Below are positions 21,781 to 58,990 of a stretch of 64,000 bases of DNA, piece after piece. The DNA is from an uncultured Pelagibacteraceae bacterium (lineage in GTDB: Bacteria; Pseudomonadota; Alphaproteobacteria; Pelagibacterales; Pelagibacteraceae). Numbering within the stretch: the stretch's first letter is position 1; each line of letters begins with the position of its first letter. The notes under the pieces were generated by a model. The model did no database searches and was not told the DNA's origin. It saw only the letters and a program-made list of their open reading frames with translations. The position numbers and the translations under genes are program-made. The stretch spans positions 1-64,000 of the forward strand of contig CAJQTC010000005.1 of NCBI GenBank assembly GCA_905618885.1, given 5' to 3'.

Positions 21781-22358
21781 TTAATTAATTTAATATAGTC
21801 GATTATCTGCTTAATAGGCAAGCCCATGATGGAGTCTCTATTGCCTTTGACGGATTCGAATAGCTCAAGCCCGCCTGCTTCTATTTGATAAACGCCGTAC
21901 GCTAACAGCGTTTCTGTTTTTATTTTTTTTAAATAATTACTAATTTCATTATCAGAAAGTTTTTTCATTTTCAGCTCTGATTGATCAGTAAAATTCCATA
22001 TCATGGCCCCATTTTTGGAAATACATACTGAGGTTATCAAATAATGTAATGATCCATTAAGTTTATTTAGTATTTTAAACGCCTCTTCTCTACTGCTGGG
22101 CTTGTTAATTAACTCATTGTTTAGACTTATAACGCTGTCTGCCCCTAATACAATTTCATCTGGATATTTATTGCTTATTTTCGTGGATTTAAGTTCTGCT
22201 AAATTTTTTGAAACTAGCTCAGGATTAGCTCCAACTGCTAACAGTGAGTCTTTAACTTGATCTTCATCTACATTTGAAGGAATAACCGTACAAGATAAAT
22301 TATTGTCATCTAAAATTTTTTTTCTAACTTCACTTCTAGATGCTAAAATTATTTTCAT
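21777..22358 (-). CDS. maf: Maf-like nucleotide pyrophosphatase
   Basis: 193 aa; ILASRSEVRKKIL, VLGADSVISLNNELINKPSSREEAFKIL. Confidence 0.92.
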   Translation of the reverse strand: MKIILASRSEVRKKILDDNNLSCTVIPSNVDEDQVKDSLLAVGANPELVSKNLAELKSTKISNKYPDEIVLGADSVISLNNELINKPSSREEAFKILNKLNGSLHYLITSVCISKNGAMIWNFTDQSELKMKKLSDNEISNYLKKIKTETLLAYGVYQIEAGGLELFESVKGNRDSIMGLPIKQIIDYIKLIK

Positions 22359-23182
22359 TTCTTTAGCTTTTTTTTTATATCAAATATTTTAATTACAGTA
22401 GCAGCAGTTTCTTCAACAGATTTTCTTGTTACGTCGATGACAGGCCATTCATATTTTTTAAAAAGTTTTTTTGATTCTTCGATCTCTTTTTTTATAAAAT
22501 CTAGATCAGAATAATTTGGAATATTTGCTTCTCTCATGATTTCAAGTCTGTTCTTTCTAATATCAGATAATCGATCTGCTTCAACAACTAAACCGATTAC
22601 ACAGAGATTGTTGTTATCTTCTTTTAAAATATCTGGAATTTTTTGCGCACCAACAAGGGGTATATTTAAAGTTTTATATCCTTTGTTCGCCAAATAAATA
22701 GACGTTGGAGTTTTGCTAGTTCTGCTAACCCCCAGCAAAACAATATCAGCGTTTTCCACATCTTCAATCTTCATTCCATCATCGTGAGAAATAGAAAATT
22801 GTAAGGCCTCAATTTTATCATAATATTCATCATCTAAAACATGTTGAGCGCTGGGTATATGCGCTGGTTTTTGTTTTATTAACTTTGAAAAATTAAGTAT
22901 TAAATTACCTAGAATATCAAAACAGGGTATGTTTTTTTTTCTACATTCTTGCACTATGTATTTGTCTAATTTTGCTTCGACAACAGTGTATAAAATTATA
23001 GCGTTTGCTTTGTTTTCACACTCTTTTATAATTTTATCAATTTGTTGCTCTGTTCTAGTAAAGACATATTCTCTCTTTTCATAATTAAAATTTAAAAACT
23101 GAGATTTTAATGCAAGAAATAGTCTGTCTAATGTTTCTCCTGTAGAATCTGAAATTAAGTTAATATGGTGTTTATGTCTCAT
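22355..23182 (-). CDS. ppsR: Pyruvate, phosphate dikinase/PEP synthase regulatory protein (kinase-phosphorylase, DUF299)
   Basis: 275 aa; INLISDSTGETLDRL, LLGVSRTSKTPTSIYLANKGYKTLNIPLV. Confidence 0.92.
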   Translation of the reverse strand: MRHKHHINLISDSTGETLDRLFLALKSQFLNFNYEKREYVFTRTEQQIDKIIKECENKANAIILYTVVEAKLDKYIVQECRKKNIPCFDILGNLILNFSKLIKQKPAHIPSAQHVLDDEYYDKIEALQFSISHDDGMKIEDVENADIVLLGVSRTSKTPTSIYLANKGYKTLNIPLVGAQKIPDILKEDNNNLCVIGLVVEADRLSDIRKNRLEIMREANIPNYSDLDFIKKEIEESKKLFKKYEWPVIDVTRKSVEETAATVIKIFDIKKKLKK

Positions 23183-23467
23183 AGGTAATCCTGTTAATAA
23201 TTTAATTATAACCTCTTGTTATACATTTAAGGTTTTATAACAAAAAACTTTTCCACAATGATTAACAAGTTTTCAAGTTTTTGTTAGTTGTTAATAATTA
23301 GTAAAAAAATTTACTTATAGGTGAATAACTTAACCATTTTACAATTTTATCTGAATAAAAATATTTTTCCTGAGGGACAAGTTGTTAAAAACTATGTATA
23401 AATAGTTATTTCACCAACCAACATGACCTATATCAAATAATATTCTTTTAAATATATTATTATATTT
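23183..23467. other. Candidate chromosomal replication origin (oriC)
   Basis: 285-bp AT-rich gap between ppsR(-) and hemE(+); DnaA-box-like 9-mers TTTTCCACA (+, 23249-23257), TTATTCACC (-, 23320-23328), TTATACATA (-, 23393-23401), TTATACATT (+, 23219-23227); gene strand switch here; hemE-linked origin as in Caulobacter. Confidence 0.7.
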
Positions 23468-24478
23468 ATGACTAAACTAACAAACTGTATATTAAACAAA
23501 GATCCATCTTGTGTCCCAGTGTGGTTTATGAGACAAGCAGGAAGATATCTCCCTGAATTCAGAAATATTAGATCTAAAAACAAAAATTTTATTAAATTAT
23601 GTTTGAATAGTAATCTAAGTTCAAAAATTACATTACAACCCATGGAAAGATTTAGATTAGACGCTGCTATTATTTTTTCAGATATTTTAATGGTTCCTTA
23701 CAGTCTTGGTCAAAAAGTGAAATTTGAAAAAAATATAGGACCTAAATTATCTTTATTTAATTTAAAAAATTTTCAAAGTAATAAAAAAAAAGATTTTACT
23801 GGAAAACTTAGGCCAGTATACGAAGCTATAAAAAAGACTAGGAAAAATTTAAATAAAGAAAAATCTTTAATTTCTTTTATAGGAGCTCCATGGACACTTA
23901 TCGTTTATATGTTTGGCTTAAAAAAAGATAAAAACACAATAGATATTAATAAATTAAAAAAATCAGAATCTGATATTAAAATAGTTCTGGAAAAAATAGT
24001 TGATTTCCTTTGTGTTCACATTGATAATCAGATTAAGGCAGGAGCTGATACTGTTCAAATATTTGATTCCTGGGCAGGTTTAATACCACAGGAAAATTTA
24101 TTTAATTATTGTTATAAACCAAATAAAAAAATCGTAGATTTTTGTAAACAAAAAAAAATACCAGTTATTTGTTTTCCTAAAGGTATAAAAAAAAAATATC
24201 TTGAATTTGCAAAAATTGTTAACCCGGATTGTTTGAGTTTAGACTATGAAATAAATCCTAATTGGGCCAGAACAAACCTAAACAATTATTGTCTTCAAGG
24301 TGGTTTAGATCCTAAAATCTTGTTTGAAAAAGAAGACGTGATTTTTCGCGCGGTGGATAAATATTTAAATGCCTTTAAAGGTCATCCCTATATATTTAAT
24401 CTTGGACACGGCTTGTTGCCAGAAACAAACCCAGAGGTTTTACAAAAATTAATTGATAGAGTTAATAATTTCAAATGA
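23468..24478 (+). CDS. hemE: Uroporphyrinogen decarboxylase
   Basis: 336 aa; PVWFMRQAGRYLPEFR, AAIIFSDILMVPYSLG. Confidence 0.96.
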   Translation: MTKLTNCILNKDPSCVPVWFMRQAGRYLPEFRNIRSKNKNFIKLCLNSNLSSKITLQPMERFRLDAAIIFSDILMVPYSLGQKVKFEKNIGPKLSLFNLKNFQSNKKKDFTGKLRPVYEAIKKTRKNLNKEKSLISFIGAPWTLIVYMFGLKKDKNTIDINKLKKSESDIKIVLEKIVDFLCVHIDNQIKAGADTVQIFDSWAGLIPQENLFNYCYKPNKKIVDFCKQKKIPVICFPKGIKKKYLEFAKIVNPDCLSLDYEINPNWARTNLNNYCLQGGLDPKILFEKEDVIFRAVDKYLNAFKGHPYIFNLGHGLLPETNPEVLQKLIDRVNNFK

Positions 24479-25497
24479 GAAAAGCTGTCATTTTATTTAA
24501 TTTAGGAGGGCCAGATAGCCTCGATGCTGTTCAGCCCTTTTTGTTTAATTTATTTAATGATCCAGCGATAATTAGTTTACCAAAAATATTTAGATATCCT
24601 CTTGCTAAGTTTATTTCCAAAAAAAGAGCTCCTATCGCAAAAGCGATATATGCAGAAATGGGTGGTAAATCTCCAATTTTAGAAGAAACAAAAAAACAAG
24701 CAAATGCAATAGAGAGAACTTTGAAACAGGAAAAGGATGAATATAAATGTTTTATTGTAATGAGATGTTGGAATCCACGTGCAACTGAAGTTGTAAAAAA
24801 AGTTAAGAAATATAATCCCCAGAAAATTATTTTACTTCCGCTTTATCCTCAATATTCGAATGCGACATCTGGCTCTTCTATAAAAGAATGGACGGATATT
24901 TGTAAAAAAGAAAATCTTAATACTGAAACTAAAACCATCTGTTGTTACCCAACTGAAGAAAATTTTATTTTATCATATGCTAGTTTAATTAGGGAAAAAA
25001 TTAATTTAAACAAATTGTCAGAAACAATTTTAATTTTCTCAGCACATGGTTTGCCAGAAAACAAAATTAAACAAGGAGATCCCTATCAGTGGCAAGTTGA
25101 AAACACAGTTGACCATCTAGTAAGGAAGTTATCAATAACAAATTTAAATTATATCTTAAGCTACCAAAGCCGAGTTGGACCATTAAAATGGATAGGGCCC
25201 TCTACTGAAACAGTTATTAAAGAAGAGGCAAAAAAGCAAAAAATTATAATAGTTGTGCCTGTTGCTTTTGTTTCAGAACATTCTGAAACACTGGTCGAGC
25301 TGGACATTGAATATAAAAAGCTAGCAGTAGAGAATGGATCTAAAGATTACGTGCGTGTTCCTGCCGTTACTGTAAACAAAGATTTTATTAATTCTTTAAA
25401 ATCTAGCATTCTTTTAGCTAGTAGTGGAAATCAGTTTACATCGTCTATAAAGTGTCCTGATAAATTTAAAAAATGTCCAAGGTTTCAAAATTTATAA
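24475..25497 (+). CDS. hemH: Ferrochelatase
   Basis: 340 aa; KAVILFNLGGPDSLDAVQPFLFNLFNDPAII, FSAHGLPE, VVPVAFVSEHSETLVELDIEY. Confidence 0.96.
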   Translation: MRKAVILFNLGGPDSLDAVQPFLFNLFNDPAIISLPKIFRYPLAKFISKKRAPIAKAIYAEMGGKSPILEETKKQANAIERTLKQEKDEYKCFIVMRCWNPRATEVVKKVKKYNPQKIILLPLYPQYSNATSGSSIKEWTDICKKENLNTETKTICCYPTEENFILSYASLIREKINLNKLSETILIFSAHGLPENKIKQGDPYQWQVENTVDHLVRKLSITNLNYILSYQSRVGPLKWIGPSTETVIKEEAKKQKIIIVVPVAFVSEHSETLVELDIEYKKLAVENGSKDYVRVPAVTVNKDFINSLKSSILLASSGNQFTSSIKCPDKFKKCPRFQNL

Positions 25498-26001: not shown

Positions 26002-27273
26002 ATGAACCTACAAGAATTAAAAAAACGAAATCCTGCGGAGCTTATTGCGCAAGCTGAAAAACTTGGCATTGAAAATCCTAGCACTTTACGAAAGCAAGAA
26101 ATCCTTTTTGCTATATTAAAAAAACTAGCAGAGAAAAACGAACAGATTACAGGCCAAGGAGTATTGGAACTTTTGCCAGATGGTTTTGGGTTTTTAAGAG
26201 CTATGGAGTCCAATTACTTGCCAGGTCCAGATGACATTTATGTTAGTCCAAGTCAAATCAGAAGATTTGGCTTAAGAACAGGAGACACAGTAGAAGGAGA
26301 AATAAGATCACCCAAAGATGCAGAAAGATATTTTGCCCTACTCCAAGTAAATAAAATTAACTTTGAAGAACCAGAAAAAGGAAGAAATAAAATTGCTTTT
26401 GATAATCTAACGCCACTTTATCCTAATAAAAAAATTACACTAGAAGTAGAAGCTGATAAAGCTGAAAAGAAACCAGACAATACGGCAAGATTAATTGATC
26501 TAGTTAGTCCTATCGGAAAAGGCCAACGAGCTTTAATTGTATCGCCCCCACGTGCCGGGAAAACTATAATTTTACAAAATATCGCGCAATCAATTACAAC
26601 AAATCACCCAGAATGTTATTTGATGGTACTGTTAATTGATGAAAGGCCTGAGGAAGTCACTGACATGCAAAGATCAGTAAAAGGTGAGGTTGTTAGCTCG
26701 ACTTTTGATGAACCGGCTTCACGTCATGTTGCTGTAGCTGAAATGGTAATTGAGAAAGCAAAAAGGTTAGTCGAACATAAAAAAGATGTGGTAATTCTTT
26801 TAGACTCAATTACAAGACTTGGAAGGGCTTATAATGCTGTTATTCCTAGTTCTGGAAAAGTATTAACCGGTGGTGTTGATGCTAATGCACTGCAAAGACC
26901 CAAAAGATTTTTTGGTGCTGCTAGAAATATTGAAGAGGGAGGCTCGCTCACAATTATTTCTACTGCCCTTGTAGATACCGGTTCAAGAATGGACGAGGTA
27001 ATTTTTGAAGAATTTAAAGGTACAGGAAACTGTGAATTGATTCTTGATAGAAAAGTTGCTGATAAACGAATTTACCCTGCACTTGACATCACCAGATCTG
27101 GCACGAGAAGAGAAGAACTTCTTTTCCAAAAAGACGACTTATCTAAAATGAATGTTTTAAGAAGAATAATCAGCCCCATGGGAACTATGGATGGGATAGA
27201 GTTTTTGATTTCAAAACTTAAAAACACAAAGAATAATGCAGATTTTTTTGAGTCTATGAACAAGACCAACTAA
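26002..27273 (+). CDS. rho: Transcription termination factor Rho
   Basis: 423 aa; [63 protein letters not shown]. Confidence 0.98.
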
Positions 27274-27319
27274 TTTTTAACCTTTTACAATCTACATCTG
27301 TGTTATTAATAAAATAAAC

Positions 27320-28648
27320 ATGAATATTTATGCACTTTCTTCTGGCAGAGGGCCTTCTGGAATAGCGATAATTAGACTGTCAGGTAAAGACGCATTAAAT
27401 ATATCAGAATTGATAACTCAAAAAAAAAATTTAAAATCTAAAGAAATAAACCTCTGCAAATTCTACAATCCATCAAACAATACTTTAATAGACGAAGGAT
27501 TGTTATTGTCTTTTCCTTGCCCAAATAGCTTTACAGGTGAGGATTTAGTCGAATTCCACATACACGGCAGTAACGCAGTAATTTCATACTTTTTAAAAGT
27601 GTTATCTGAACAAGATAATTGCAGATTAGCAGAAGCAGGTGAATTTACTAAAATAGCTTTTCAAAACAATAAAGTCGACCTCATCGAAGCTGAAAGTATT
27701 GGCGACTTGATACACTCTGAAACCGAATTACAAAGATTACAAGCTTTAAAGTTAGTACAGGGAAATGCATCAAAGTATTACAACGAACTAAGAGAAAAAC
27801 TTATTAAATCTTTAGCATATATAGAGGCTAAAATTGATTTTGCAGAAGATGATTTACCAGAAAGCGTTTTAAAAGAAGTTCAGAATTCAATTAGAGAAGT
27901 GTACACAGATATAAAAAAAATTCTAAAAAGTCACGACATAGGAGAAAAAATTAGAGATGGATTTAAGGTTTCTATAGTAGGAGAGGTAAATGCTGGAAAG
28001 TCATCACTCCTTAATTTGTTGTCCAAGAGAGATGCAGCAATTGTCTCTGCCGAAAAAGGAACTACCAGGGACGTTATAGAAGTTTATCTAAATATTGATG
28101 GTTATCCAGTTATATTAGCTGATACGGCAGGAATACGAAATTCTGAAAATGAGATCGAAAAAAAAGGAATTTCACTAGCCATTAACAAATCAAAAGAATC
28201 TGATTTAAATTTAATCATGATCGACAATTCCTCTAAAAGTATAGACCCAAAAATTAAAAATTTGATAAACGAAAATTGTATTGTTGTTTTAAATAAATCT
28301 GATGTCGATAGTAAACAAAATCATAATTTCAAGAACGTAGAAATAGTACTAATTTCCGTTAAAAATAATCAAAATATTACCCAGTTAATAACCAAAATCA
28401 AAAAAAATTTAAGCTCTAAATTTACAACATCAAATACTGTTTTGGTAACAAGAGAGAGACACAGAGTTAAACTAATCGACTGCCTAAAAGAAATAGATAA
28501 TTTTCTTAAAAAAGACCAAAACAAGGATATTGAGATGGCAGCAGAAGATCTTAGATTAGCAACCAGACATCTTGGTAGTATAGTTGGAAAAGTAGATGTT
28601 GAAGAAATTCTAGGTTCTATTTTCAAAGATTTCTGTATAGGTAAATAA
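27320..28648 (+). CDS. mnmE: tRNA uridine-5-carboxymethylaminomethyl synthesis GTPase MnmE
   Basis: 442 aa; GEVNAGKSSLLNLLSKRDAAIVSAEKGTTRDVIE, C-terminal FCIGK. Confidence 0.97.
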   Translation: MNIYALSSGRGPSGIAIIRLSGKDALNISELITQKKNLKSKEINLCKFYNPSNNTLIDEGLLLSFPCPNSFTGEDLVEFHIHGSNAVISYFLKVLSEQDNCRLAEAGEFTKIAFQNNKVDLIEAESIGDLIHSETELQRLQALKLVQGNASKYYNELREKLIKSLAYIEAKIDFAEDDLPESVLKEVQNSIREVYTDIKKILKSHDIGEKIRDGFKVSIVGEVNAGKSSLLNLLSKRDAAIVSAEKGTTRDVIEVYLNIDGYPVILADTAGIRNSENEIEKKGISLAINKSKESDLNLIMIDNSSKSIDPKIKNLINENCIVVLNKSDVDSKQNHNFKNVEIVLISVKNNQNITQLITKIKKNLSSKFTTSNTVLVTRERHRVKLIDCLKEIDNFLKKDQNKDIEMAAEDLRLATRHLGSIVGKVDVEEILGSIFKDFCIGK

Positions 28649-28695
28649 TTTAAATTAGATCTTGTAAATTTTTTTTAGAGTAATACATTTAGCTA

Positions 28696-30570
28696 ATGAT
28701 TGATAAGAGCTATGATGTAGTAGTTATTGGTGGTGGGCATGCCGGGTGCGAAGCAGCAGCAGCATCTGCCAGAATGAACGTCAATACTGCACTTTTTACA
28801 CATAAAATAGAAACTATAGGAGAGATGTCATGTAATCCAGCTATTGGTGGCTTAGGCAAAGGACATCTTGTAAGAGAAATAGACGCTCTTGATGGTGTAA
28901 TGGGTGTTGTAACTGACAAGTCTGGTATTCAATTTAGACTATTGAACAGAAGCAGAGGTCCAGCCGTAAGAGGACCAAGGACTCAATCAGACAGGGCTCT
29001 TTACAAAATGCATATGCAAAAAATTTTATTAAATTATAAAAACCTAACCGTAGTAGCGGATCCCGTGATTAAGTTTTTGTTTGATAACGAAACTGATAAA
29101 GTTATAGGATTTATCTGTGAGAGTAAAAAAAAAATCTTATGTAAGCAACTTATCTTAACTACTGGCACTTTTTTAAATGGTTTAATACACATTGGTCAAA
29201 AACAAATCCCAGCTGGACGATATGATGAAAAGCCTTCAACAGGTCTAAGTGAACAACTAAAAAAATATAACATTAAACTTGGCAGATTAAAGACAGGAAC
29301 ACCACCACGGCTAGATGGTACAACTATCAATTACGATCAAATAGAAATGCAAGCAGCAGACCCTGACCCTTATTTCTTTTCTTTCTTAACCAATAAGTTG
29401 AGTAATAAACAAATCTCATGTGGCGTTACTCACACTAACAGTGAAGTACATAAAATAATAAATGAAAATATACATCATAGCGCTATGTACTCTGGCAACA
29501 TTAAAGGTGTTGGCCCAAGATATTGCCCGTCTATAGAAGATAAAATAGTAAAATTTAGAGAAAAACAACAACATCAAATTTTTCTTGAGCCTGAAGGATT
29601 AAACGACAATACTGTTTACCCAAATGGTATATCGACCTCACTCCCTGAAGACATTCAGCTTCATTTTTTGAGTAAAATCAAGGGTTTAGAGGAGGTTAAA
29701 ATGGTTAGAGCTGGATATGCAATAGAGTATGATTACGTTGATCCAAGGGAACTAAATTCGACATTAGAGACAAAAAAAATTAAGTCTCTTTTTTTAGCAG
29801 GACAAATAAATGGAACAACGGGGTACGAAGAGGCTGCTGCGCAAGGTTTGATAGCAGGTGTCAATGCTGCATTAAAAATTAAGAATGAGAAAGAATTTAT
29901 ACTAGATAGGTCAGAATCTTATATCGGTGTTATGATCGATGATCTTATTACTAAAGGTGTATCTGAGCCATATAGGATGTTTACATCTAGAGCAGAGTAT
30001 AGACTTTCTCTTCGTGCAGATAATGCAGACCAAAGATTAACACCACTCGGTATTAAAATTGATTTAGTCCAAAAGAATAGGGAAAAGATTTTTTTTGACA
30101 AACAAAAAAAACTAATTTCTGTTTACAACGTATTACAGTCTAAATTAATATCTCCTAATGCAGCTGCTAAATATTCTGTTAAAATAGCAATGGATGGTGT
30201 TAAAAGAAGAGGTATCGAGTTGTTAGCTCTAAAGGATATTACACTTAATAAATTAAGAACAATTTGGGATGATATACCCCAATTTGATAAATCGATAGAT
30301 GATCAAGTAGAAATCGATGCTCATTATTCAGGTTATTTAAAAAGACAAACCCACGACATTGATGCATTCAAAAAAGACGAACTAATAACAATACCATCAG
30401 ACATCAATTATGAAAATTTTAGTGGTCTTTCAAATGAAATCAAATCAAAACTCAGTTTGATAAAACCTCGAACTCTTGGACAGGCTCTAAGAATAGATGG
30501 AGTTACACCAGCAGCAGCAATCATACTCTTAGCTTTTATAAAGAAAAACAGATATAAAGCATCTGCTTAA
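28696..30570 (+). CDS. mnmG: tRNA uridine-5-carboxymethylaminomethyl synthesis enzyme MnmG
   Basis: 624 aa; [42 protein letters not shown]. Confidence 0.98.
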
Positions 30571-31193
30571 TGAATGAAAAAGAAGTACAATCAATACTAT
30601 TAAATAAGCTTCAATTTAATCAAGATTCTCTATACAAGCTAGATACATTTTGTAGAGAAGTCATCGAATATAACCTAAAGTTTAATCTTATAGCAAAATC
30701 TACTATAGATAATATATGGGATAGACATGTATTAGATTCGGCCCAATTAGTTAAATTTATTGATTTTAATGACGGATCTAGCTTATCAGACCTAGGTACA
30801 GGTGCCGGATTTCCAGGTATAGTACTTGCAATATTTAACAAAAATCCAAAATTTCACGTGAAATTATATGATAAATCTAGGGTAAAAACCAAGTTTCTTA
30901 TCAATTTATGTGAAAAACTAAATATTCAGGCAGAAATTTACGAAGGCGATTATAGATCACACAAAATAAGTAGTGAGTATGTAGTATCTAGAGCCTTTAA
31001 AAAACTGGAAGAACATATTCGCATTTCACGTGAAATCATTGAATATAGTCACAAGCTTATAATCCTAAAAGGTAGAAATGCTTTATCGGAGATAAAACAA
31101 CTTAACAAAAATTTTAATTACAGTTATAGTCTAGAAAAAAGTATTACTAGCCCAGACTCAAAAATAGTAATAATTAATTTTGAAAAAAAATGA
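30570..31193 (+). CDS. rsmG: 16S rRNA (guanine527-N7)-methyltransferase
   Basis: 207 aa; DRHVLDSAQLV, LSDLGTGAGFPGIVLAI. Confidence 0.95.
   Translation: MNEKEVQSILLNKLQFNQDSLYKLDTFCREVIEYNLKFNLIAKSTIDNIWDRHVLDSAQLVKFIDFNDGSSLSDLGTGAGFPGIVLAIFNKNPKFHVKLYDKSRVKTKFLINLCEKLNIQAEIYEGDYRSHKISSEYVVSRAFKKLEEHIRISREIIEYSHKLIILKGRNALSEIKQLNKNFNYSYSLEKSITSPDSKIVIINFEKK
30850..30865. promoter_or_regulatory. parS-like ParB binding site 1
   Basis: Perfect 16-bp palindrome AATTTCACGTGAAATT inside rsmG; matches parS core TTTCACGTGAAA. Confidence 0.88.
31023..31036. promoter_or_regulatory. parS-like ParB binding site 2
   Basis: Perfect 14-bp palindrome ATTTCACGTGAAAT inside rsmG, 154 bp before the parA start. 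Confidence 0.88.
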
Positions 31194-31978
31194 AAAAAAT
31201 AATTTCAGTTATAAATCAAAAAGGTGGTGTTGGAAAAACTACTACAGTAGTAAACCTATCAACAGCGCTTGCACAACTTGGTAAGAAAATATTAGTAATA
31301 GATTTAGATCCACAAGGAAACGCTACAACCGGGTTGGGAAAATCAAATAACGAAATCGAGAAAAATATTTATAAAGCTATTATAGGTCAATCTGACCTAA
31401 AAAAATGTATACAAAACAGTTGCGTAAAAAACCTTGATATTATTGGCTCAAATGTCAATTTATCTGGGTTAGAGGTCGAAACTGCAAGCAATCCTAATAG
31501 AGCTTTTCTTTTAAAAGAAATTTTAACAGAAAAAAACAAACAACTATTTGATAAATACGATAATATTTTTATTGATTGTCCACCTTCTTTAAGCTTGCTC
31601 ACCGTAATGTCATTAGTTGTCGCTGATGAATTATTGGTTCCGCTACAAACAGAGTTTTTTGCTTTAGAAGGAATTTCGCAATTAGTAAAAACAATCGAAA
31701 GAATTAAAATTAATTTAAATCCTAATTTAGAAATTAGAGGAATTCTACTGACCATGTTTGATAAAAGAAATAAATTATCAACTCAGGTAGATGATGAGGC
31801 TAGAAAGTATTTTAAGGAGAAAGTTTACAAAACTGTAATACCAAGAAACGTAAGATTATCAGAAGCACCCTCCCACGGTGTACCTTGCATTGTTTATGAT
31901 AAAATGTGTCTTGGCAGCCAGTCTTATATCAGTCTCGCCAATGAGTTTATCGAGCAAGGAAATGTAGAGAATATTTGA
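31190..31978 (+). CDS. parA: Chromosome partitioning ATPase ParA
   Basis: 262 aa; ISVINQKGGVGKTTTVVNLSTALA. Confidence 0.97.
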   Translation: MKKIISVINQKGGVGKTTTVVNLSTALAQLGKKILVIDLDPQGNATTGLGKSNNEIEKNIYKAIIGQSDLKKCIQNSCVKNLDIIGSNVNLSGLEVETASNPNRAFLLKEILTEKNKQLFDKYDNIFIDCPPSLSLLTVMSLVVADELLVPLQTEFFALEGISQLVKTIERIKINLNPNLEIRGILLTMFDKRNKLSTQVDDEARKYFKEKVYKTVIPRNVRLSEAPSHGVPCIVYDKMCLGSQSYISLANEFIEQGNVENI

Positions 31979-32874
31979 TGACAGAAGAAAACAATAAAAA
32001 AGGTTTAGGACGAGGATTGATGTCGTTGTTTGGTGATCAAGCTGATATTTCAACAGATAAGAAAGATTCTTCGCAAAAAACAAAAAGTAACAACCCATAT
32101 TTACTATTACCCATAAGCGATCTAGCACGTAATAGATTTCAACCAAGAAATTTGTTTGATGATAAAAAATTAGAGGAATTAGCACAATCTATAAAAAAAA
32201 ATGGTTTAATACAGCCAATTGCAGTCAGACCGGGTAAAAAAAAAGATGAATACGAAATTATAGCAGGTGAGAGAAGGTGGTTAGCTTCACAAAAAGCAGG
32301 ACTTCACGAAGTACCAGTAGTTGTGCTTAATCTTAATGATACGCAGTCCTTAGAGTTAGCAATTATAGAAAATATCCAAAGAGAAGATCTAAATTCTATC
32401 GAAGAGGCAAAAGGTTATGATCGATTAATGAAAGAATTTAATTACGACCATGAGAAAATTTGTGAGTTTATGGGTAAAAGCAGAAGTCACATTAGTAATA
32501 CACTCAGACTTTTGACTCTACCTAAAGAAATAATAGAATTAGTCAATGAGGGTAAACTTTCGGCTGGGCAAGTAAGACCATTAGTTGGAAGGTTCAATGC
32601 TATCGAGTTAGCTCGTTCAATAATTAAAGATAGGCTTAGTGCGAGATCTATAGAAAATTTAGTAAAAAGAGAAAAAGAAAAAGAAGATGAAAAATTAAAA
32701 CCTCCAAAAAAGACCGATGTTAATATATTGTTGGCTCAGCAAAAAATTGAAAAAAATCTTGGTTTAAACACCAGAATTGTAAGTAAAAAAAATAGTTCTG
32801 GAAAAATAATAATTGAATTTAGTAATCCAGATCAATTTGAAATGTTGTCAAATTTATTAGTTAAAAAGAAATAG
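31978..32874 (+). CDS. parB: Chromosome partitioning protein ParB
   Basis: KKGLGRGLMSLFGD, NRFQPRNLFDDKKLEELAQSIKKNGLIQPIAVRP, GERRWLASQKAG. Confidence 0.97.
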   Translation: MTEENNKKGLGRGLMSLFGDQADISTDKKDSSQKTKSNNPYLLLPISDLARNRFQPRNLFDDKKLEELAQSIKKNGLIQPIAVRPGKKKDEYEIIAGERRWLASQKAGLHEVPVVVLNLNDTQSLELAIIENIQREDLNSIEEAKGYDRLMKEFNYDHEKICEFMGKSRSHISNTLRLLTLPKEIIELVNEGKLSAGQVRPLVGRFNAIELARSIIKDRLSARSIENLVKREKEKEDEKLKPPKKTDVNILLAQQKIEKNLGLNTRIVSKKNSSGKIIIEFSNPDQFEMLSNLLVKKK

Positions 32875-33871
32875 AAGAAGCTCTACTGGTGAGTTTAATA
32901 ATAAGATCTTTAATTATAACATCATATCGAAGAAAAGAATTTTTCTTCATCAACATCTCTGTTTCACTAATTTTTATTGCCGATTGTGTTAAACTTTCTA
33001 GACTCCATTTTTTAAGTTGATTAATAACTATGGGTTTGTCCTTCCAAAAAATAGGTGGTCTTACGTTTTCTATAGCATCTTCGTATTTAACATTATTGCC
33101 TTTACTAATCTTAATTATGTCTTTCAGTTTGGCAACTCTATAGTTTAGGCTATTCAAATAAAAAAAACTATCTTCGTTCTGTAGATCTATTTCTGACAAC
33201 AAATTATTAATTTTTTTCTTTTCTCCATTTAGCGCACTGTCTCTAATTTCATCAAAATTACTATTACTTTTGATATTGAGTATTTCTAATATTTCAGTTT
33301 TATTAATTTTTTTTTCCAAAAAAAAACTTTTAATTTTTTTTAGCTCATTTTGAATGAGTACTCGATTCATATTTGAATTAGAAATTATTAAATTAACTAT
33401 TTCACCAGATAATCCGTTAAGGTTTTTCAACTCCTTATTCACGTAAGCAATTAAAGTTCTTTCATTATCTTCATAGCAAGGAAAAATTGCTAACTTTAAA
33501 TTTTTTTCAAACAGATTCCTTAGTTTTGATTTTTTTTCTAAATTCTCAGAAAAAATATAAATTTTAATATTTTTATTCTCCTTTTCTAAACTTTCAAAAA
33601 TTTCTTTATAAATTTTATCTGATGCTTCTTGTATGAAGATTATTTTTTCTTTATTGAAAAGTGATTCATTAATAATGTTTTTATATAAAATATCTTTATT
33701 TTTTAATACTTCATCCTCAAAAAAAACTATTATTTCTGCATTTTCATTTTTGTCTTTTAACTTTTTTTTTATGTCGTTTTTTATTCCATTATTCTGTCCA
33801 TAAATTAAAGTTGCCTGGTAATTTTTTAAAACATCTACATTTTGTTCAACTATATAACTTTTTAGTATCAT
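32861..33871 (-). CDS. holA: DNA polymerase III delta subunit
   Basis: 336 aa; divergent sequence but delta-like pattern (ATLIYGQNNGIKNDIKKKL, FPCYEDNERTLIAYVNKEL) and conserved location after parB. Confidence 0.85.
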   Translation of the reverse strand: MILKSYIVEQNVDVLKNYQATLIYGQNNGIKNDIKKKLKDKNENAEIIVFFEDEVLKNKDILYKNIINESLFNKEKIIFIQEASDKIYKEIFESLEKENKNIKIYIFSENLEKKSKLRNLFEKNLKLAIFPCYEDNERTLIAYVNKELKNLNGLSGEIVNLIISNSNMNRVLIQNELKKIKSFFLEKKINKTEILEILNIKSNSNFDEIRDSALNGEKKKINNLLSEIDLQNEDSFFYLNSLNYRVAKLKDIIKISKGNNVKYEDAIENVRPPIFWKDKPIVINQLKKWSLESLTQSAIKISETEMLMKKNSFLRYDVIIKDLIIKLTSRASSISF

Positions 33872-34344
33872 TTATTTCTCATTAATAGTTTTATAAATAG
33901 CGTAATATCATCTGTTAACTGTTGGGTAATAATTTTTATTGTACTTTTTTCTTTTGTAACCGTTTTTGAGTAATCTGATGAGATATCATAATCTCTACTT
34001 CGTATAAATGTCTTTTGTACTATTTTATTATCGTTCAGATTTTTCAAAATTAGCGAGGCAGAAATAGATAAATTATATCTTGTAATTTTACCTGCTATGT
34101 CTTTTATTTTATCGGTCTTTTTTTTCTTTAATACTATTTCAATGTCGTATTTATTTTTTGCCTTACTGTCAGAAATTAGAAGAATGTTATTTTTTAGTTT
34201 ATACGAGATTCGATTATCTCCTGTAATATTAATATTCTGGATATAAATTATATTGTTGTCTCTTTGATTAATCTTTTTAAATCCACATGAATTTAATGTC
34301 AGACACAGAATAAATATGAATATAATTTCAATTTTTTTTTTCAT
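33868..34344 (-). CDS. lptE: LPS-assembly lipoprotein LptE-like
   Basis: 158 aa; lipobox LTLNSCGFKKI; between leuS and holA. Confidence 0.82.
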   Translation of the reverse strand: MKKKIEIIFIFILCLTLNSCGFKKINQRDNNIIYIQNINITGDNRISYKLKNNILLISDSKAKNKYDIEIVLKKKKTDKIKDIAGKITRYNLSISASLILKNLNDNKIVQKTFIRSRDYDISSDYSKTVTKEKSTIKIITQQLTDDITLFIKLLMRNK

Positions 34345-34349
34345 TTTAG

Positions 34350-36872
34350 TTATTTTATAAGATAATTAATTATTCTATTTTTTACAAATATAGTTCTTTG
34401 AATTTTGTTTTTTATTAATTGATCATTAATCTTCTTTATCTTTTTGCATTCATTTATAACATTTTTTTCATTTAAGTCCTTTTTTAGCTCTATGATTTCT
34501 TTTGTTTTTCCATTGATTTGTACAGCAATTTTTATCTTTTCTTCTGGGTTTAATTCACTATTAACTCGTGGCCAGATATTAATATCCTTCGCCTTTAGTT
34601 GTTCCAAACATTCGTGTGCAAGATGAGGTGTAAAAGGTATAAGAATTTTCATTAATTTTGAGAGATTTTTATTTAAGCATTTGTTGCTTATCTCTTCGTT
34701 TATTGATGAATTGAATAAACTATAGATACTATAAATGTTTGCAACTACCACATTTAATTGAAAATTTTTTATTAAGTTGGTTATTTTTAAAATATAATTA
34801 TTGATTTTAATCTCAAAATCTTCACTTTTATTAATCTGAGGATCTTTACGATTAATAATTACGTGGGTTAAATTATAAAGCTTTTGTAAAAACTTATAAG
34901 CTGCATTAACACCTTGGTTAGACCATTGAACATCTTTTTCAGGGGGACTATCAGATAAAATAAACCACCTAACAGCGTCAGCACCGTACGACTTGATCAT
35001 TATTTCAGGGTCAATAACATTTTTTTTTGACTTAGACATTGACTCAGAAGGACCAACAGTAACTTTAGTTTTATCTGCAATCTTTTCAAACTCATTTTTG
35101 TTATTTTTTTCTATTTCTTCTGGATTCAACCATTTACCATCAGTATCTTTATATGTTTCATGACAAACCATACCTTGAGTAAAAAGACCCTTAAATGGTT
35201 CGGTTACATTTATTTTAGGATTATTTTTTTGAACAGCACGCGTGAAAAATCTCGAATAGAGTAAATGTAGAATTGCATGCTCTACGCCACCAATATACTG
35301 GTCAACAGGCATCCAATAATTTAAATCATCAATATTAAATGGCTCCATCTTATTTTTCGGCGAACAAAATCTCATAAAATACCATGAAGAATCTACAAAA
35401 GTATCTAACGTATCCGTTTCTCTAATTGCCGGGCTACCAGTTTTTTTATGAATAGTTTTTTTCCAAGTAGGATGGTTTGCAAGTGGGTTTCCACCTTTCT
35501 TTAAATCAACGTCTACTGGTAATTTTATAGGTAGCTCATTTTTTTCGACAGGAACCACACTACCATTTTCTAAATAAATCATCGGTATAGGGCAGCCCCA
35601 ATATCTTTGTCTTGATACTCCCCAATCTTTTAATCTAAATGAAACTTTTTTTTGACCAATTTTTTTCTTCTCAATTTCATTAATAATTTTTATTTTGGCT
35701 GTTTCTGTGTCTAAGCCATTTAAGAAATCAGAATTAACAAGTAATCCACTTGAGGTGTAGGCTTCTGTAATTTTTTTAAAATTCTTTGGTTTATCTTTAT
35801 TTTCAGCAACAACTTCTATAATTTCTAAGTTATATTTTTTAGCAAAATCTAAATCTCTTTGATCATGCGCTGGACAACCAAAAATAGCTCCGGTTCCGTA
35901 GTCCATTAATACAAAATTTGCTACAAATACTGGAATTTTTTTATCTTTAATAAATGGGTGAACGGCAAATAGATTAGTGTTAAAGCCACTTTTTTCTGCA
36001 ACAGCTAAAGCCTCTTCAGTTGTTCCTACCTTTAAACATTCTTCTTTAAATTTTATGAATTTATTTTCTTTTTCAAATTGAGAACATAAAGGATGATCTA
36101 TTGAAATAGCCAAAAAAGATGCACCAAATATTGTATCAGGCCTTGTTGTAAAGACTTTAATACTCTTATCATCAAGTAATTTGAAATTAATTTCACAACC
36201 TAAAGATTTTCCAATCCAGTTTTTTTGCATTAATTTAACTTTTTCAGGCCACCTATCTAATGTATTAAGATCACTCAATAACTCATTTGCAAATTTTGTA
36301 ATATTAAAAACCCATTGGGATATTTTTTTCCTTTGCACAATTACCCCGGATCGCCAACCTCTACCATTAACTACCTGTTCGTTAGCCAGCACAGTTTGTT
36401 CAACTGGATCCCAGTTTACATAGTTTTCTTTTCTGGACACGTACCCTTTGTTAAAAAATTCAATAAACAACTCTTGTTGATGTTTATAATAATTTTCATC
36501 ACATGTTGATATTTCAAGATCCCAATCAATAGATAAACCCAACATTTTAAGTTGTTTTTTCATTTGAGATATATTTTTTTCCGTCCACTCTTTAGGATGT
36601 AGATTGTTTTCCCTTGCGGCATTCTCAGCAGGTAAACCAAAAGAATCCCAGCCCATGGGATGTAAAACGTTATAACCATTAAGGTACTTAAAACGAGCTA
36701 TAACGTCACCTATTGTATAATTTCTAACGTGACCCATATGAATTTTTCCAGAGGGATAAGGAAACATTTCTAAACAATAAAATTTTGGATTATTTTTTTC
36801 TCTATATAATTTTTTACTTTCAAAAATGGACTGCCACTTTTTTTCAATTAATTGAAAGTTAAGTCGTTCCAT
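34350..36872 (-). CDS. leuS: Leucyl-tRNA synthetase
   Basis: 840 aa; [21 protein letters not shown] (HIGH-type), KMSKSKKNV (KMSKS). Confidence 0.98.
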
Positions 36873-57354: not shown

Positions 57355-58398
57355 TTACAGTTCAGCGACAACAAATTGCATACCAAGCCAGCGCCAAGAT
57401 CCATTGGGCTCTCTTAGAGAGCAATTAATCCTTCCTCTTTCTGTTGTAAATTTACCGATTAGGTTAATTTTAATTTTAAAATTATTTATGAACTTGATTT
57501 CAGATTTTCTCCATGAATTAAGTTCATTCGAATAACAATTTAATAACTTAATATTTTTCATATCTTCAAAAAACTCAATCGTAACTTCGGGAGGATTATT
57601 AATATTATTGATATACTTTTCTCTTGGAAAAATTGATTTAAATTTTAAAGGAATTGTTTTAAGAATTAATTCAAATCTTTCAATTTTGCCATATTTTTCA
57701 TTAATAGAAAATCTAGGAAGTTCATAAAAATCTTTTGTTTCGTCAGCAACTCCCGAATGTTGACCAAATGCATACTTAAAATTTAAATTTTTAACAACAT
57801 TCTTAAAGTTGTTGCTATACTCTCCAAATGGATATGAAAAAAAAGGTGAACTATAATTTAATTCTTTTTTAAAAGTTTTTATGGCTAGTTCTATATCATT
57901 AATAATTTCATCATCTGTTTTATCAACTAAATAATCATGAGAGTAGCTATGATTTCCTATGTGCACAAACTTTTCTCTTGATATTTCTTTAATTTGCTTC
58001 CAAGTCATATAACCACTACTGCCAACCTCACGTGTATTTACAAATAATATAAAAGGTATCTTATTATCTTTAAGTATAGGCCAAGCGTGATCATAAAAAG
58101 ATTTAAACGCATCATCTATAGTTAATAAAACTTTTTTCTTATTTTTATATTTTGTGAGATTATCTTCAAAATTATTTGCATTAATAAAGCTAAAACTATT
58201 TTTTTTTATAAGATTTATTTGTTTTATAAAATCTGTTAGTTTTATATTGGTAGAAGGATATTTGTTTTCATCAAATCGATGATACATAAGGACAATAACA
58301 CCTTTATCCTCTATATTATCAGCTATAGATGAGGAACCAAAAAGCATAGATATAAAAAATAAAAAAATGATCAAAGATTTTTTAATAATTAATTGCAC
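57355..58398 (-). CDS. Polysaccharide deacetylase family protein
   Basis: VIVLMYHRFDENKYPSTNI, LLTIDDAFKSFYDHAWPIL, HIGNHSYSHDYL; GTG at 58398 gives signal peptide MQLIIKKSLIIFLFFISMLFGSSSIADN (ORF opens at 58614). Confidence 0.85.
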   Translation of the reverse strand: MQLIIKKSLIIFLFFISMLFGSSSIADNIEDKGVIVLMYHRFDENKYPSTNIKLTDFIKQINLIKKNSFSFINANNFEDNLTKYKNKKKVLLTIDDAFKSFYDHAWPILKDNKIPFILFVNTREVGSSGYMTWKQIKEISREKFVHIGNHSYSHDYLVDKTDDEIINDIELAIKTFKKELNYSSPFFSYPFGEYSNNFKNVVKNLNFKYAFGQHSGVADETKDFYELPRFSINEKYGKIERFELILKTIPLKFKSIFPREKYINNINNPPEVTIEFFEDMKNIKLLNCYSNELNSWRKSEIKFINNFKIKINLIGKFTTERGRINCSLREPNGSWRWLGMQFVVAEL

Positions 58399-58975
58399 AG
58401 GTTTAAATGATTCCATTGCTTTAAAAAATGATAATAAATTTTTTTTTAAAAAATTACAAACCAATCTTGTTAAAAATGAAATTTTAGTCTTGGATATTCT
58501 TACTTTTCTTAAAGAAAACAATGTTAGAATAAATAATAAGCTTTCAATTATAGTAAATTCAGGCCCTGGAAGTTTTTCAGGTATTAGAATCGCCCTGGCT
58601 GTTGCCAAAGGCATACAGCTTGTTAATAAAGTAAATGTTTATAGTTATAATTATTTTCTGTTAAATGCAGCACCATATTTAGATCAAAAAATGAGAATTA
58701 TTTCCATCCAAAAAACAAATAATTTTTATTATTATTCAGAAGGAAAGTATAATGAGGGGTTTAATTTTACTATACCAGAAAAAATTATCTCTAGCAGTTG
58801 GAAGAAAAAAGATTCTATTGTTATTGTACCTCATGAAACAATAAATGATGAAATATTTAATAATATTAGTCAAAAAAAATTAAAAATAGCTCAATTCAAC
58901 CTTAAAAATATTGAAATATTAGTAAAAAATAATTTATTAGAAAATAAATTGATTAAACCACTATATTTAAGTTAA
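58367..58975 (+). CDS. tsaB: tRNA threonylcarbamoyladenosine biosynthesis protein TsaB
   Basis: 202 aa; SIIVNSGPGSFSGIRIALAVAKGIQL motif. Confidence 0.9.
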   Translation: MIKDFLIINCTGLNDSIALKNDNKFFFKKLQTNLVKNEILVLDILTFLKENNVRINNKLSIIVNSGPGSFSGIRIALAVAKGIQLVNKVNVYSYNYFLLNAAPYLDQKMRIISIQKTNNFYYYSEGKYNEGFNFTIPEKIISSSWKKKDSIVIVPHETINDEIFNNISQKKLKIAQFNLKNIEILVKNNLLENKLIKPLYLS

Positions 58976-58990
58976 GTTATAAATAACTAT

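Follow-up and report, generated by a model that had tools for sequence, protein, structure and literature searches.

The 285-bp non-coding gap between the divergent genes ppsR and hemE (positions 23183-23467) is, with a probability that we put at roughly 90% from the sequence, the chromosomal replication origin (oriC) of this SAR11 (Pelagibacterales) bacterium, located at the ppsR|hemE position that would be ancestral for Alphaproteobacteria. The candidate had been proposed in an earlier note on the same DNA, and its reading as oriC is supported by the gene neighbourhood, a constant gap length, sites that are conserved in position, the proximity of parS, and the fact that the gap outlasts the loss of either flanking gene. 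The window, i.e. the whole analysed stretch of 64 kb, is the beginning of contig 5 in a draft genome of 571 kb that is 57% complete and whose named relatives are single cells of uncultured Pelagibacteraceae.

The gap and its gene neighbourhood

The gap was found as claimed, bounded on the left by ppsR (22355-23182, minus strand; Kinase-PPPase, COG1806/DUF299; PF03618, E 1e-85) and on the right by hemE (23468-24478, plus strand; PF01208, E 2e-90). It is also the longest non-coding gap of the window, as had been stated. The sole longer interval between listed ORFs, 58615-58990, is filled by a 202-aa ORF (58367-58975) with a weak match to TsaD. The switch of coding strand that had been noted at the gap is real but local, with leftward genes resuming at 32861. 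The GC content of the gap is 20.7%, compared to 23 to 35% for 2-kb stretches of the window. Thus, the gap shares with origins of the hemE/COG1806 type both a high A+T content and a place between divergent hemE and COG1806 (ppsR).

This gene arrangement is widespread. In loci chosen to represent one alphaproteobacterial family each, ppsR and hemE were divergently adjacent in 26 of 28 cases, with gaps of roughly 330-1070 bp. The origin of Caulobacter crescentus (Cori) was experimentally identified between hemE and COG1806 (PMC1914354), and it shares with our candidate the same divergent flanking genes, AT-richness and several DnaA boxes (PMC1914354). The Rickettsia prowazekii origin, between RP885 (hemE) and RP001, likewise has these flanking genes, is A+T-rich and belongs to a small genome (PMC1914354). 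It is 384 bp long and was identified by DnaA, CtrA and IHF sites, whereas CtrA is absent here. The family survey and the placement of the Caulobacter and Rickettsia origins together suggest that SAR11 keeps the ancestral origin location, though its gap is shorter. Gap length was 266-286 bp across 51 SAR11 genomes, even though HemE of these genomes is often just 51-64% identical to the window HemE. In the open-access full texts that were searched, experimental mapping of a SAR11 origin was not found.

The gene that follows hemE showed an unusual pattern of similarity. HemH of the window (24475-25497) is 79% identical to HemH of G023, its nearest relative, and both are only 26-30% identical to the HemH proteins encoded at this place in other members of the genus and in G074 and G061, which suggests that the gene has been replaced.

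DnaA-box-like sites

We scored the gap with a DnaA-box weight matrix that we wrote from the E. coli consensus, using a threshold of 4 bits. Seven sites exceeded the threshold (z 3.2), where dinucleotide shuffles gave 2.3. No other 285-bp stretch of the window reached as high a matrix score sum, although one (59082) exceeds the gap by site count. The gap thus contains several predicted DnaA boxes, as expected for an origin of the hemE/COG1806 type, but they are degenerate, and a perfect TTATNCACA box was not present in the gap. Enrichment in the single window sequence is modest; the strength of the box evidence comes from relatives.

The comparison across related genomes that the earlier note had suggested was carried out with 31 gap sequences from the genus of the window. 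Box-like sites recur, and within the genus their positions and strands are fixed. All four 9-mers that had been listed are present, namely TTTTCCACA at 23249 and TTATACATT at 23219 on the plus strand, and TTATTCACC at 23320 and TTATACATA at 23393 on the minus strand. As conserved sites they fared differently: TTATACATA held up, the site at 23249 turned out to be the form that a TTAACA site takes in the window, and those at 23320 and 23219 did not stand. The list had also missed the best conserved pair, at 23192 and 23289. Most of the conserved sites resemble TTATNAACA.

At the ppsR edge, TTATTAACA occupies the minus strand at 23192-23200; about 90% of the genus has a box-like sequence at this position, and TTATTAACA itself is found in 23 of the 31 sequences. 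TTATACATT, a little further in, is weakly conserved. An array of plus-strand sites ending in AACA, spaced by 10-11 bp, then starts at 23249. Its first site (23249-23257) is TTAACA-type in most of the genus, with TTATTAACA, TTACTCACA or TCATACACA in other members and TTTTCCACA in the window. Such an interchange of AACA and CACA is the behaviour expected of a DnaA box. The second site, TGATTAACA (23259-23267), follows 10 bp from the first and reads TAATTAACA in 19 of the 31 sequences, and the third (plus strand, 23269-23277) is degenerate in the window (GTTTTCAAG), while the other members listed have an AAC-containing site there. The array is faced by a second minus-strand TTATTAACA at 23289-23297, box-like in 84% of the genus. 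A further minus-strand position at about 23312 is box-like in 74% of the genus (TTATAAACA) and degenerate in the window.

Further to the right, TTATTCACC (23320-23328, minus strand) lacks conservation in the genus. The positions of the weak box-like site TTTTTAACA (23383-23391) and of TTATACATA (23393-23401), both on the minus strand, are box-like in 55% and 42% of the genus, respectively, and the latter contains a TGTATAA motif that is conserved. Beside hemE, a conserved plus-strand element of the form AACA-n-n-ACCTA (23420-23430), which reads TTATTCACAGGATA in the Pelagibacter-type genus g8, is followed by an A+T-rich segment at the hemE edge (23430-23467), which may serve as the unwinding element.

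Box-like sites at the ppsR edge were also present in other SAR11 genera, as TTATTAACA, TTTTCCACA or TTATAAACA. In genus g8, two plus-strand boxes are positionally invariant, one of the TTATTAACA type and one of the TTATTCACA type that adjoins hemE. Pooled box enrichment reached z values of 9-18 in two genera, in which the related sequences are not independent of each other. In sampled Pelagibacter DNA the gap was not the densest box cluster, and its cluster is not unique in these samples.

Proteins that may act at the gap

DnaA is the expected ligand of these sites. A dnaA gene was not found in the 57%-complete draft; in relatives it lies 60-72 kb from hemE, and the RDHTT motif of the box-reading (recognition) helix is intact. 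Alternatively, the gap could be an origin that is controlled through its TTAACA array by a protein other than DnaA, such as a regulator of the OmpR type that recognises a CtrA-like TTAA-N7-TTAA site. This spacing, which we take to match the CtrA consensus, occurs in 22 of the 31 genus gaps, compared to 6.3 expected from shuffles. It is, however, explained by the 10-11 bp phasing of the array, and the AACA/CACA interchange at the first array position (TTACTCACA, TCATACACA, TTTTCCACA) speaks for DnaA. CtrA itself is absent from SAR11. A CtrA query, validated by matches of 77-82% identity in four other Alphaproteobacteria, retrieved SAR11 relatives that were at best about 35% identical. We therefore rejected TTAA-N7-TTAA as a CtrA site, and consider binding of the array by a regulator other than DnaA rather unlikely.

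The exact IHF consensus WATCAANNNNTTR does not occur in the window gap and was found in 6 of the 31 genus gaps; HU/IHF family proteins number one to three per genome. The combination of CtrA sites with a CtrA protein, and the IHF site, that mark a Caulobacter-type origin were thus not found for the window gap. Compared to Cori, the window gap is also just 285 bp long, it lacks an exact IHF consensus site, its boxes are mostly of the AACA and not of the CACA type, and SAR11 has no CtrA gene. Because CtrA is missing, the likeness to Caulobacter is limited to location, and the gap is not a CtrA-controlled origin of the Caulobacter type.

In E. coli oriC, low-affinity sites for ATP-DnaA are packed together as weak 9-mers with a spacing of about 11 bp that face sites of opposite orientation. 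Spaced weak 9-mers facing opposite sites can be read from the window gap as well, but the site sequence differs, and strong anchor boxes of the R1/R4 type are absent.

The basal unwinding system of Bacillus subtilis consists of a DnaA-box and DnaA-trios (PMC8287927), defined as a DnaA box, a short spacer, and at least three trios with a conserved middle base (PMC8287927). Some SAR11 genera have a similar arrangement near hemE, with a box-like element followed by A+T-rich repeats of period 3. Compared to shuffles, trio runs gave z values of -0.3 in the window's genus, 2.2 in g8 and 3.3 in g5/g7. Runs with the required middle base were not above shuffles in the genus of the window, and the values for the other genera are suggestive at most.

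GC skew and the dnaA region

The earlier note had named a GC-skew minimum elsewhere on the chromosome as a finding that would refute the candidate. We sampled 20 stretches of 16 kb (320 kb in total; L096-L115) from the complete genome of a relative, G067. Skew tracked gene strand in this sample, and after strand correction the third-position skew was about zero on both predicted arms (+0.024 and -0.003), without a skew switch. Near-absence of skew in SAR11 leaves the proposed refutation test powerless, and with such flat skew, origin finders based on this signal may misplace the SAR11 origin.

Many bacteria initiate replication beside dnaA. The origin could accordingly be sought elsewhere, for example next to this gene, with ppsR|hemE as a relic of an old origin, and both the distance of 60-72 kb to dnaA and the absence of a skew signal that would pin the site leave room for this idea. 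However, the gap upstream of dnaA in SAR11 varies in length (175-403 bp) and has only 0-3 box-like sites; the two genomes from the genus of the window have none there. By contrast, parS lies close to ppsR|hemE in all complete genomes (see below). We regard an origin outside the ppsR|hemE gap as very improbable.

Proximity of parS and parAB

Origin-proximal parS and parAB are typical of bacterial chromosomes, and both were found near the gap. In 11 of 11 complete (single-contig) SAR11 genomes, parS (TGTTNCACGTGNAACA, at most 1 mismatch) was located 7-20 kb from the gap. A canonical parS was not detected in the window, even with up to 3 mismatches allowed. Instead, palindrome matches identified two copies of a parS variant, ATTTCACGTGAAAT, 172 bp apart within rsmG (30851-30864 and 31023-31036), the first 7.4 kb from the gap. 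They are the sole matches to the relaxed palindrome in the 571-kb draft and directly precede parA (31190-31978, plus strand; PF13614) and parB (31975-32874, plus strand; PF02195 and PF17762). The same ATTTCACGTGAAAT pair with the same 172-bp spacing is present in rsmG of G014, and near-variant pairs 169 bp apart are present in rsmG of G035 and G007. By sequence comparison, parS of the window's genus appears to have drifted from the TGTTTCACGTGAAACA of other SAR11 genera.

A perfect palindrome, CTTTTTACGTAAAAAG, was observed in the majority of the genus members that were tested (L158:5000-5015, L160:5733-5748, L161, L162, L163). It lies on the hemE side, at a distance of about 11-12 kb from the gap, and is absent from the window. 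It was rejected as the parS of the genus, as it lies on the opposite side of the gap from rsmG-parAB.

Persistence of the gap and rearrangement of its surroundings

In genus g6, represented by two complete genomes (G062/G063), hemE lies about 600 kb away. The gap is still found beside ppsR, with rho as the next gene, about 19 kb from parS. It aligns with gaps of the window's genus at z 3.4-3.9 over dinucleotide shuffles, with the best alignment nearly full length. The g6 hemE (L074, L075) is a distant version of 31-32% identity, located in a run of overlapping genes and directly followed by a hemH-like gene. The opposite loss is seen in family f2, in 12 genomes of which ppsR was not found. In the two f2 loci that were read, the gap is bounded by maf and hemE, with lengths of 271 and 275 bp. 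One gap (G037) aligns with those of other families near the hemE edge; alignment of the other (G038) to other gaps was not above shuffles. The g6 gap without hemE and the f2 gap without ppsR indicate that the gap outlives the loss of either neighbour.

These cases also bear on a simpler explanation, according to which the gap only holds the divergent promoters and regulatory sequences of ppsR and the hem genes, and the motifs are promoter or regulator sites. Divergent genes need promoters in the gap. The element near hemE contains TATAAT in genomes of the Pelagibacter type, and a hemE promoter probably overlaps the origin. Yet the gap stays with parS after hemE has departed, and beside hemE after ppsR has been lost. 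Moreover, promoter-like matches numbered 5 compared to 4.9 expected from shuffles, and box-like sites recur over the entire gap. A purely regulatory role thus appears highly improbable.

The surroundings of the gap differ between genomes. The block mnmE-mnmG-rsmG-parA-parB is on the ppsR side, about 15-20 kb away, in G014, G035 and G007, and on the hemE side in the window, in G023 (rho-mnmE-mnmG, as far as the contig reaches) and in the Pelagibacter-type G074. Whichever side it is on, its direction of transcription leads away from the gap. In the window the block extends to holA and leuS (26002-36872), and this longer block, too, is on the ppsR side in other genus members (L168, L169, L170, L177). 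Inversions centred on the origin would give such side-switching.

Proposed function and significance

A plausible course of initiation can be outlined from the arrangement of the sites. DnaA would bind the ppsR-edge box and the central low-affinity TTAACA/TTATNAACA sites, in which an array on the plus strand, phased at 10-11 bp, is opposed by sites on the minus strand. A DnaA filament would then open an A+T-rich region, for which the hemE edge (23430-23467) is the most likely place, the replicative helicase would be loaded, and forks would depart in both directions. ParB bound to the parS pair 7.4 kb away would move the new origins apart.

The gap would belong to a familiar class, the DnaA-type oriC in its ancestral alphaproteobacterial place. 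It is mildly distinguished by the nearly exclusive AACA-type sites of this genus, by a parS pair that has diverged and by flat skew. More speculatively, the genus may have an origin that has lost canonical TTATNCACA boxes almost wholly in favour of a phased convergent TTAACA-type array. Initiation would then, CtrA being absent, be timed by nothing but the cooperative occupation of weak DnaA sites, or by a second TTAACA-binding protein. We consider this possible but doubtful.

No other heterotrophic bacteria of the surface ocean are as abundant as SAR11. A precise origin is needed for estimates of their growth from read-coverage ratios, and for the study of a cell cycle that runs without CtrA. 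The ppsR|hemE gap together with parS provides a usable anchor for the origin, draft genomes included.
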